Below, piece after piece: positions 961 through 8,810 of a DNA stretch of 33,268 nt. Below the pieces are notes generated by a model. The model worked only from the letters and a program-made list of their open reading frames with translations. It searched no databases and was not told the origin of the DNA. The stretch's first letter is position 1. Each line of letters opens with the position of its first letter. Made by a program: the position numbers and the translations under genes. Location: NCBI GenBank assembly GCA_029260055.1, contig JAJDDX010000010.1:1-33268 (forward strand), in the 5' to 3' direction. Source of the stretch: Phycisphaerae bacterium (lineage in GTDB: Bacteria; Planctomycetota; Phycisphaerae; UBA1845).

Positions 961-1133
961 GGTGTGCCACCGCTCTCGAGCGGAGGTCAAGCCGGGTGGC
1001 AGGGACGCGCGGTAACGGGTGGCATGGGCAAGCAGCAGCTTGCTCGTGTACATGCGTTGCTCAGCACTGGTGGCAAGCCACCAGTGGCACCCAGCGCGGG
1101 TGCCCCATCCTTCGGTATGTCCGAAGGGTGGGG
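961..1133. repeat. cluster of four different intergenic hairpin repeats
   Basis: Four palindromic elements lie between the natA-like gene and the fumarase beta gene. At 961-983 is GGTGTGCCACCGCTCTCGAG, which recurs at 8788-8810. At 1017-1048 is a 32-bp element with ends GGGTGGCATGGGC and GCTCGTG, which recurs at 2861, 2902 and, inverted, at 8739. At 1065-1086 is the perfect stem CACTGGTGG-CAAG-CCACCAGTG. At 1103-1133 is a 13-bp stem, CCCCATCCTTCGG against CCGAAGGGTGGGG, with one wobble pair. The last lies just after the fumarase stop codon and could end or protect that transcript, but it has no T-run. Confidence 0.8.
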
Positions 1134-1143
1134 GACGGAAGCC

Positions 1144-1761
1144 TCAACTCGCGAGGATCTCTTGCAGCTTCTTCTGCGAGTCGGTCCGAATCTTGTCGTG
1201 CAGGCTTTCGCCGTGCGAGTCCATCGTCACGACGCACGGGAAGTCCTCGACACGAATCTTCCAGAAGGCCTCCGGCACGCCGAAGTCCAGCTTGTAGACG
1301 TCGAGCACTTCCTTGACGCTCTCGGCGATCAGCGTGGCAGCTCCGCCGATGGCGTGCAGGTAGACCGCTCCATGCTCCTTGCAGCCCGCGAGCGTCCTGT
1401 CCCGCATGCCGCCCTTGCCGATGACGGCGCGGACGCCGAAGTGCCCCATCACGTCAGCCTGATAAGGTTCCTCGCGGATGCTGGTGGTAGGGCCGGCCGC
1501 GACGAACGTGTGCTTGCCGTCGTTCGTCTTGCCCACGACGGGCCCGCAATGGTAGATCACGGAGCCGGCCAGCCCCGCCTTGAGCACGTCGTACGTCTCC
1601 TTCTCGGAGTCCGGACAGGTGCCCTTGATGAAGTTGTCCATCATGTACTTATGCGCGGCGTCGCGACCGGTGAAGATCACGCCGGTGACGAGCACCTGAT
1701 CGCCGACCTTCAAGGCCCGGATGTCCTCTTCGCTGATCGGAACGGTTAGTTTGACGGCCAT
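1144..1761 (-). CDS. class I fumarate hydratase (Fe-S hydro-lyase), beta/C-terminal subunit
   Basis: This is the 205-aa C-terminal half of a two-subunit class I hydro-lyase, which interconverts fumarate and malate in the TCA cycle. L-tartrate dehydratase beta belongs to the same family, so the substrate is inferred. Family hallmarks are the start LTVPISEEDIRALKVGDQV, then GRDAAHKYM, YHCGPVV, AAGPTTSIR and IGKGGM, and the C-terminal FGVPEAFW and VTMDSHG blocks. I chose the ATG at 1759-1761 (MAVKLTV) because GGGAG lies about 8 nt upstream; an in-frame ATG at 1774 would absorb that site. The gene follows the alpha subunit on the same strand, but the 182-nt gap is unusually long and filled with tandem hairpins. 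The neighbouring divergent fumC supports a fumarase role. Confidence 0.92.
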   Translation of the reverse strand: MAVKLTVPISEEDIRALKVGDQVLVTGVIFTGRDAAHKYMMDNFIKGTCPDSEKETYDVLKAGLAGSVIYHCGPVVGKTNDGKHTFVAAGPTTSIREEPYQADVMGHFGVRAVIGKGGMRDRTLAGCKEHGAVYLHAIGGAATLIAESVKEVLDVYKLDFGVPEAFWKIRVEDFPCVVTMDSHGESLHDKIRTDSQKKLQEILAS

Positions 1762-1822
1762 GCGTGTATCTCCCATTGTCGAGCGGGATAGCCTGCAGGT
1801 GGCTTTGCGGTACGAGTTCGTC

Positions 1823-1936
1823 GGTCCGCACAGCGGACCCTACATATGTACGAGTACGTTGGTCCGCACAGCGGACCCTACATTTGTACAAGCACGTTGG
1901 TCCGCACAGCGGACCCTACATTCCTGAAGAAGCCTC
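1823..1936. repeat. three 38-bp tandem hairpin repeats inside the fumarase alpha/beta gap
   Basis: Three direct copies begin at 1823, 1861 and 1899, exactly 38 bp apart. Each starts with the perfect palindrome GGTCCGC-aca-GCGGACC followed by CTAC. A 17-bp linker follows; the first two are alike (CATATGTACGAGTACGTT and CATTTGTACAAGCACGTT), while the third has diverged. Read on the coding (minus) strand, each unit is GTAGGGTCCGC-tgt-GCGGACC. The array fills most of the 182 nt between the alpha stop (1944) and the beta start (1761). The same palindrome occurs singly at 4570, 4621 and 6843. Confidence 0.95.
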
Positions 1937-1943
1937 GTCGGTC

Positions 1944-2819
1944 CTACGGTGCCTCGATCGTGACAGAGCCGTTCTTGATCGTCAGGAGCTTGCGGCGGTC
2001 GGCCCAGCACATGTACGCGATGGACACGAAGAAGGAGGCCGGCACGCGGTGTAACTGAGCCATCTTGACGCCGAGGACCGTCGTCTTGCCGCCGAAGCCC
2101 ATCGGGCCGATGCCGAGTTCGTTAATCTCGCGATGTAGCCGCTTCTCCATCGCGTCGAGTTCGGCGTCTTCGTTGCTGTCGGTAAGACGCCGGAAGAGCT
2201 GCTCCTTCGCCTTGATCATGCTCGTCGCGCGGTCGCCGCCGATGCCGACGCCGAGAATGCCGGGGGCACAGCCGAGGCCCTGAGCCTTGCAGGCCGCGTC
2301 CAGCACGGCCTTTCGCACACCCGTGATGTCCCGAGCGGCTGGGAAGTCCTGCGAGGGCACGCTGTACTGGGCGCCGCAGTTCTCCGACCCGCCGCCCTTG
2401 AGCATGAGCCCGACCTTGACGTAGTCGTGCTCCCACTCGTCGAAGTGGATGGTCGGGAAGTCCTCGCCGGTGTTGTCGCCGGAGTTCTTGCCGGAGAGTG
2501 CCTCGACCGCGTTGGGCCGCAGGTACGTCTTCTCGGTGGCGATCCGGACAGCCGCCTTGACCTGCTTGCGAATCTGAAGCTGAGACACGCCGACGGGGTA
2601 CCAGACATAGAAGATCGGCGTGCCCGTGTCCTGGCAGATAGGCCGGCCGGTCTTGCGCGACATCTCGACGTTGTCGAGGATCGTCAGCAGCGCGCCCTGG
2701 GCGGCTGAATCCTTCTCCTCCGTCTCGACCGCGGTTGACAGTGCGTTCTGCACGTCCGGGCCCAGGTCCGTCGAGGCCGACTTGATCAGTTCGACAAGAT
2801 GCTCGGTGATATCCTGCAT
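1944..2819 (-). CDS. class I fumarate hydratase (Fe-S hydro-lyase), alpha/N-terminal subunit
   Basis: This 291-aa catalytic, iron-sulfur-binding subunit is the N-terminal half of a class I fumarase or tartrate dehydratase. Likely [4Fe-4S] ligands are C62 (in PICQDTGTP), C184 (GLGCAPGILG) and C271 (IAYMCWADRR); their spacing resembles the three cluster cysteines of single-chain FumA. ENCGAQYS and GIGPMGFGGKTTVLGVK are further family blocks. The start is the ATG at 2817-2819 (MQDITEHL), preceded by GGGAGG 7 nt upstream. The frame is open further upstream to 3128, but that stretch crosses repeat DNA and is not protein-like. It is divergent from fumC with 324 nt between them. Enzymes of this class are usually oxygen-sensitive because of the cluster. 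Confidence 0.93.
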   Translation of the reverse strand: MQDITEHLVELIKSASTDLGPDVQNALSTAVETEEKDSAAQGALLTILDNVEMSRKTGRPICQDTGTPIFYVWYPVGVSQLQIRKQVKAAVRIATEKTYLRPNAVEALSGKNSGDNTGEDFPTIHFDEWEHDYVKVGLMLKGGGSENCGAQYSVPSQDFPAARDITGVRKAVLDAACKAQGLGCAPGILGVGIGGDRATSMIKAKEQLFRRLTDSNEDAELDAMEKRLHREINELGIGPMGFGGKTTVLGVKMAQLHRVPASFFVSIAYMCWADRRKLLTIKNGSVTIEAP

Positions 2820-3143
2820 GTGAAAACCTCCCAACCGTCGCATTTTCGACGGGGTCTTCCGGGTGGCATGGGCAAGCAGCAGCTTGCCCGTGTCTCGTTC
2901 CGGGTGCCACGGACTCACAGCAGCTTGTCCGTGTTCGCCTTCGCCGTAGTCTCGCATCGGACAGTAGTCACGGGCAAATCCCGGCGTGCCGGGACCCATG
3001 CCACTCATCGCAGCGTCCGCGCGGGCTGAAGCCCGCGGCTCGGGGCGCTCGATTCCGGGTCCGTCTTTTAGCCTGCGCCGGGATAGGTTACCCTGCATGC
3101 CACGTTTCTCAAGCAAGATCGATACCACCGCCGGGAGGTTCGG
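2820..3143. repeat. intergenic region between the two fumarase loci, filled with hairpin repeats
   Basis: No gene is supported here. The region carries two direct 32-bp copies of the GGGTG...AGCTTG(C/T)CCGTG element (2861-2892 and 2902-2933). It also carries an inverted relative at 2969-3004 that keeps the outer ends (CACGGGC ... CCCATGCCAC) but has a different inner palindrome (CCCGGC-gt-GCCGGG, 2980-2993). At 3020-3037 is the stem CGCGGGC-tgaa-GCCCGCG. Divergent promoters for the class I fumarase and fumC must lie here, but I cannot place clear -35/-10 boxes. The Shine-Dalgarno of fumC is GGGAGG, 5 nt before its ATG. Confidence 0.85.
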
Positions 3144-4538
<1,395 letters not shown>

Positions 4539-4802
4539 GACGCAGTTCGTAAAGCCGCGATGCCTTCCTGTAGGGTCCGTTTCGCGGACCAGGGTCTGCT
4601 ACGGTGCACATCGCACTCGCGGCCCGCACAGCGGACCCTACGGGACTGTCCACCGGATTTTGCGCCCCGTCTTCCTTGCCCGTCTACCCCCCCCGGGCCT
4701 ACTCTATGCCGAGATGCGGCATAAACATCGAAAAAGTCGAAACGTCCAAACGTCCGTAGGGCGGGCTCGGCCCGCCGGCGGCGCAGCGATAGGAGCAAAG
4801 GC
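4539..4802. repeat. repeat-rich spacer: inverted pair of GTAGGGTCCG hairpins plus a GTAGGGCGGGC hairpin
   Basis: At 4570-4590 is GTAGGGTCCG-tttcg-CGGACC. At 4621-4641 is the related GGCCCGCacaGCGGACC followed by CTAC, in the opposite orientation. At 4756-4776 is GTAG followed by the perfect stem GGCGGGC-tcg-GCCCGCC. The last lies about 25 nt before the start codon of the next gene. The pair could terminate fumC transcription. No gene is seen here. Confidence 0.85.
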
Positions 4803-6832: not shown

Positions 6833-7404
6833 GCGTAGCCCCGTAGGGTCCGCTGTGCGGACCATTCTCCCCGCCGCTTGGCCGTTTCGACGTTTCCCCC
6901 ACTTCCTGAGTCGCAGGCTTTAGCCTGCGCGGGCCCGCGCGACCGGTAGGCACGGGCCTCGTTGGCAACACCAAGGTTCGCATAGGGCCAAAGGAGGCGC
7001 ATCAGCTCAACCGACTTCGCACGATTCCGGAAAAAGCTTGCATCGCGCGGCGCGGCCTGGGTATAAAAGCCTCTTAACCGTTGGCTGACGGCGCGGGCGG
7101 CGCTGCTGGCCGGGCGACACACATCGACCGAGCGTCTGATCGAAGGGAGGGCGGATCGTATGCGCTCCACAGCGCGATGCACCAAATGGCCCTGACTGCG
7201 CGGCGGGTACGTACCGGCGGCGGACGGTACGCAGCGGGCTCGTTCCTTTTCTTTGCGGGCCGGTGGAGGGATCAGTCGCCACGAAGTCCTTACATATCCA
7301 CGAAACTCGATCGCCGGGGCGCCGCGGTGCGTCTCACATCAAACGACGGTGACAGGCATGGCGGGAAGACGCGACCGCCGCGCATCTGTCGAAGGGAGGT
7401 ACAT
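6833..7404. other. long non-coding leader and spacer upstream of the secreted metalloprotease
   Basis: No convincing gene is present in about 570 nt. It contains a GTAGGGTCCGC-tgt-GCGGACC hairpin (6843-6863), a CGCAGGCT-tt-AGCCTGCG stem (6912-6929), a promoter-like pair (7038-7067), and a tiny reading frame with its own GAAGGGAGG site, ATG at 7160, 11 codons, ending TGA at 7195. A nearly identical CGAAGGGAGG site precedes the real gene at 7405. If the promoter is right, the mRNA leader is about 330 nt. The open frame that reads through from 7081 is not protein-like before residue M(TRKR). Confidence 0.6.
7038..7067 (+). promoter_or_regulatory. possible sigma70-type promoter for the secreted protease operon
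   Basis: TTGCAT (7038-7043) and TATAAA (7062-7067) are separated by 18 nt. The TATAAA box is conspicuous in otherwise GC-rich DNA. The only downstream genes are the secreted metalloprotease-like gene and its partner, starting about 330 nt later. Confidence 0.4.
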
Positions 7405-8738: not shown

Positions 8739-8810
8739 CACGGGCAAGCTGCGCTTGCCCATGCCACCCGGATTCGACTGAACGACGGTGTGCCACCGCG
8801 CTCGAGCGGT
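8739..8810. repeat. two intergenic hairpin repeats downstream of the VOC gene
   Basis: At 8739-8769 is an inverted copy of the 32-bp element seen at 1017 and 2861 (ends CACGGGCAAGC and CATGCCACCC). At 8788-8810 is GGTGTGCCACCGCGCTCGAG, the partner of 961-983. The two types therefore co-occur at both places, 7.8 kb apart. The element lies just 3' of the VOC gene on the minus strand. Confidence 0.8.

Follow-up and report, generated by a model that had tools for sequence, protein, structure and literature searches.

When a regular array of hairpins is found between the genes for two subunits of one enzyme, an obvious question is whether the array serves these genes or is simply carried along by them. 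Such an array separates two genes (PF05681 and PF05683), each encoding one half of a class I iron-sulfur fumarase, in the window considered here, that is, the whole stretch of 33,268 nt that was analysed. As argued below, the array is very probably a mobile repeat of the GTAG-tagged REP type that is carried as a passenger. The elements of the locus, in the order of the presumed transcript, and the further copies of the repeat in the window are as follows:

1944..2819, minus strand: fumarate hydratase class I alpha subunit (PF05681, TIGR00722), upstream gene; TAG stop codon at 1946-1944
1899..1919, minus strand: REP copy 1 in transcript order (GTAG-GGTCCGC-TGT-GCGGACC), 24 nt past the alpha stop codon
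1882..1898, minus strand: linker 1, 17 nt, AACGTGCTTGTACAAAT
1861..1881, minus strand: REP copy 2, same sequence as copy 1
1844..1860, minus strand: linker 2, 17 nt, AACGTACTCGTACATAT
1823..1843, minus strand: REP copy 3; next to it in the transcript, a third stretch resembling the linkers, GACGAACTCGTAC
1144..1776, minus strand: fumarate hydratase class I beta subunit (PF05683, TIGR00723), downstream gene; likely start, by alignment to relatives, at the ATG at 1761
4570..4590, plus strand: further copy of the array REP, 1 mismatch, head-to-head with the copy at 4621
4621..4641, minus strand: further copy, 1 mismatch
6843..6863, plus strand: further exact copy, 10 nt past the 3' end of a gene

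The three 21-nt copies (GGTCCGCACAGCGGACCCTAC on the plus strand, GTAGGGTCCGCTGTGCGGACC on the coding strand) are identical and spaced by exactly 38 nt, so that the preliminary description, which reported three hairpin repeats of this period between the fumarase subunit genes, was accurate in this respect. Its designation of the repeat as a 21-bp palindrome holds for the length and not for the symmetry: the hairpin proper comprises 17 nt, with a 7-bp stem and a 3-nt loop, and the other 4 nt make up an unpaired GTAG (CTAC) tag, present in all three copies. This anatomy is that of the GTAG-tagged REPs, namely, palindromic repeats of 20-40 nt with a stem of 6-13 bp, a short loop and an unpaired GTAG at one end. 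When the array is divided into 38-nt units (1810-1847, 1848-1885 and 1886-1923), their identity to the first unit is 100, 92 and 84%, respectively. The class I genes have a class II fumarase gene (FumC type; PF00206, PF10415) as their divergent neighbour at 3144-4538 on the plus strand.

The repeat is by no means confined to this gap. The palindrome GGTCCGCNNNGCGGACC occurs 72 times, on many contigs, in the genome from which the window derives (7.63 Mb in 500 contigs), as compared to 0 occurrences of the reversed control pattern, and therefore is not a product of chance; 70 matches (37 forward and 33 reverse) carry the exact GTAG tag. The three additional copies in the window are within one mismatch of the array REP; the preliminary description mentions neither these copies nor the dispersal of the repeat over the genome. 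A second repeat (CGGGTGGCATGGGCAAGCAGCAGCTTGC...) is also found in the window, at 1016-1049, 2860-2893, 2901-2934 and 8753-8772; it resembles the repeats around a gene for a REP-associated tyrosine transposase (RAYT) on contig C344. According to a simple home-made gene finder that is based on codon usage and was applied to 244 kb, 73 of the 81 scanned copies of the array-type REP are intergenic, even though coding sequence makes up about 77% of the DNA by the same calls. The 8 copies "inside" genes lie 19-155 nt from predicted starts and may reflect over-long gene calls. Where both neighbours were known, the REPs were located between unidirectional genes in 33 cases, convergent genes in 18 and divergent genes in 9, the convergent gaps thus holding 18 of 60 sites in 5.5 of 42 kb. 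Close pairs of REPs in this genome, counted with up to 4 mismatches per copy, are head-to-head in 23 cases, head-to-tail in 22 and tail-to-tail in one.

REPs are thought to be mobilised by RAYTs (HUH/Y1 enzymes, also TnpA_REP), and RAYT genes flanked by the array-type REP are present in several related genomes. Specifically, one locus (L207 in genome G034) is a complete REPtron, which consists of a REP, a gene for a 191-aa RAYT and a second REP, the TAG of which is the RAYT stop codon. Two such RAYTs, used as queries (alignment A1), yielded 60 loci, and a tree was built on 51 of these. In planctomycete-type genomes, most of the loci have GTAG-tagged palindromes at their borders, as a rule of a single type per locus; many Chromatiaceae loci among the 60 are without them. 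All ten RAYTs with GGTCCGC-type REPs, i.e. those of the array type, fall into one clade of 11 rows (SH-aLRT 98), the 11th row having a GGCCGG variant, and the REP-type label changes 2 times on the tree of 51 RAYTs vs 9.3 times in shuffles. Hence, the array repeat exemplifies a REP type that tracks a RAYT clade across phyla: the clade includes two Chromatiaceae RAYTs (L249 and L250). Since the REP and the RAYT clade are both common to planctomycetes and purple sulfur bacteria, the REP-RAYT pair may have been transferred between these groups. The planctomycete loci that share the REP and the clade with the two Chromatiaceae loci are L214-L217, L245, L246, L251 and L256.

In the 500 contigs of the own assembly, no RAYT bordered by the GGTCCGC REP was found, which counts against the explanation of the array as a mobile passenger. 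The Y1_Tnp matches there are on contigs C64 (IS200-type), C391 and C344 (other RAYTs, and also one in frame inside valS), and the wider RAYT clade is represented on C191 and C230, plus a remnant on C484, none of them bordered by GGTCCGC REPs. The first two of these (L223, C191:8492-9049, and L239, C230:26596-27150) are near-complete RAYTs bordered by another REP, GTAGGGTGCG..., and the C191 copy has an internal TAG. Because the RAYTs of the wider group in this assembly lack GGTCCGC borders, the enzyme mobilising the array REP is absent from this genome, lost or unassembled.

The RAYT genes that lie in frame inside housekeeping genes appear to be a more unusual lead than the fumarase array. On C344 (L028:6321-10403), a RAYT/Y1_Tnp domain occupies approximately residues 537-637 of a valyl-tRNA synthetase ORF of 1360 aa; no other valS match in the genome exceeds the family cut-off. 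In-frame Y1/RAYT stretches are also found in the valS, ileS and gcvP ORFs of genome G038, in alaS of G011 and in a BREX-type PglX methylase of Lamprocystis (G060), the loci concerned being L294, L295, L296, L297 and L298. Several of these stretches are bordered by repetitive peptides resembling translated repeats; judged by sequence, they look like REP-RAYT units that entered the genes and left the reading frame intact. A search of the literature found no report of in-frame REP-RAYT insertion in such genes.

The relatives allow one to ask whether the array belongs to the fumarase operon as such. The tagged repeat is present, with a patchy distribution, in 20 of the 60 genomes searched (the own genome and 59 relatives, none of which is of the same genus); the exact 21-mer, among the matches listed, is found in numerous records of Planctomycetota as well as in Chromatiaceae (Lamprocystis, Thiodictyon, Thiococcus and Thiosymbion). 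In ten relatives the two fumarase genes lie near each other; the gaps, counted from the end of the alpha alignment to the start of the beta alignment, are 18, 20, 35, 36, 100, 107, 152, 176, 192 and 1024 nt long. The array repeat is in none of the ten gaps. Relative G011 has 77 copies of the array REP elsewhere and a fumarase gap of 20 nt that is free of REPs; the same applies to relative G007, with 27 copies and a gap of 18 nt. In the gap of two others (G006 and G023), a different exact GTAG-tagged palindrome (GTAGGGTGGGC...GCCCACC) is found, a REP type that in G006 is also at many other genomic sites, and in two further cases (L175 and L176) looser tagged palindromes were spotted by eye. Insertions are thus tolerated in the gap, which has received REPs of different types.

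The anatomy of the array repeat places it in a REP family, and the observations establish its dispersal over the genome, its intergenic bias, its absence from the relatives' gap, the existence of similar arrays elsewhere and, in related genomes, the correspondence between REP type and RAYT clade. The scenario that we infer starts with a single REP, a non-autonomous mobile repeat, being inserted by a RAYT of the GGTCCGC clade into a dispensable part of the intercistronic region, past the end of the alpha gene. This REP, along with 17 nt of flank, would then have been tandemly duplicated twice, giving the three head-to-tail copies, after which the linkers would have diverged and the cores stayed identical. 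Local tandem duplication of palindrome plus linker, proposed already in the preliminary description, is general in this family, given that head-to-tail runs of at least 3 copies with locus-specific linkers exist at other loci and in other genomes (periods 27+27, 29+29, 30+30 and 38+38). Likewise, the dispersed family and its association with RAYTs favour the option of an expanding selfish repeat. Three independent insertions of the REP could account for the identity of the cores in the face of variation at 8 of the 17 linker positions among the three units, but this origin is very unlikely considering the exactly equal spacing, the 92/84% identity across the whole 38-nt unit and the identical locus-specific linkers of other arrays. 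The unit has 8 variable columns, of which the linker holds all and the core 0 (if change were uniform, P = 5e-4); the duplication is therefore not brand new, and conversion, re-insertion or selection has kept the cores identical. The invariance of the cores vs the variable linkers could reflect selection on the hairpins and, in this respect, counts against the view of the array as a passenger. The linker might derive from the head-to-head spacer (GGAACGAATTCGT), an idea that is no more than suggestive. Cleavage at a fixed CT on the 3' side of the REP was considered but is not claimed here: CT is co-placed in the three fumarase linkers, but shows only a slight peak over 87 copies (11 at position 7).

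Could the array, nevertheless, regulate the fumarase genes? That strong, GC-rich hairpins come so soon after the alpha gene might bring to mind transcription attenuation or intrinsic termination ahead of beta. However, none of the copies is followed by the T-tract that an intrinsic terminator would need, there is no terminator-like site on the minus strand in 1000-3200, and no Rfam match to the array was found, which makes this interpretation, including the attenuation entertained in the preliminary description, extremely unlikely. No promoter was found at the array on the minus strand either. It is improbable, although less so, that the array was co-opted as a post-transcriptional element whose hairpins would shield the 3' end of the alpha mRNA or promote processing between the cistrons, resulting in unequal amounts of alpha and beta. 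The array does reside on the presumed transcript just past the alpha stop; the folding energy is -11.6 kcal/mol for each hairpin and -31.3 kcal/mol for the pairing between two neighbouring copies, which the self-complementary palindrome permits; and some relatives, as noted, carry other REP-like palindromes in the same gap. Against co-option, the advantage of the whole 216-nt array region over shuffles in folding is modest (z -1.7), the relatives with gaps of 18-36 nt have no hairpin, and the same REP is located at dozens of unrelated loci. Furthermore, the fumarase subunits are presumably needed in equal amounts. The suggestion that the array sets the subunit ratio is not supported: the relatives' gaps are without the array repeat, and nothing was found that ties it to the ratio.

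In E. coli, REPs can protect and stabilise the upstream mRNA (PMC12306157). By analogy, the array may have a mild effect on the alpha mRNA, where the transcribed hairpins may slow down 3'-5' decay of the message; under the passenger scenario, such an effect would be a by-product. Processing or stabilisation of the mRNA by the array is possible. It is quite improbable that, in this bacterial family, REPs with different RAYT specificities repeatedly land in the fumarase gap and that the array was kept because it tunes the stability of the alpha mRNA relative to beta. A fumarase-specific role is not needed to explain the array: what at first glance is a striking structure can be accounted for as an ordinary mobile repeat, which calls for caution against reading it as a fumarase regulator.

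Among known systems, a CRISPR is ruled out on the repeats alone, given that the linkers resemble each other and the repeat is dispersed over the genome. REPINs (PMC3116915), which consist of two inverted, head-to-head REPs, are also ruled out for the array, where three head-to-tail singlets share one strand; the family does form such doublets elsewhere in the genome, with spacers of 13 or 28 nt, and tandem clusters of REPs or REPINs including flanking sequence are known in Pseudomonas (PMC3116915). The BIMEs and intercistronic REPs of E. coli are similar to the array in being palindromic GTAG repeats between genes of an operon. However, BIMEs pair their REPs inversely, in contrast to the common orientation of the three copies here, and E. 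coli REPs have a bulge in the stem (PMC8266576), unlike the array copies. The closest counterparts are the GTAG-tagged REPs of Di Nocera et al. 2013 (PMC3733652); the sequence of the array repeat was not found in the published text searched, and Figure 1 and the supplements of that paper may list it. In that paper, these REPs are recorded also from Planctomycetes, and RAYT genes flanked by the repeats are described. The features in common are the terminal GTAG, the 7-bp stem, the 3-nt loop, the high copy number and the mostly extragenic location near gene 3' ends, frequently with unidirectional or convergent neighbours; thus, on account of its anatomy and genome-wide intergenic dispersal, the array repeat matches the description of the GTAG-tagged REPs in that text.
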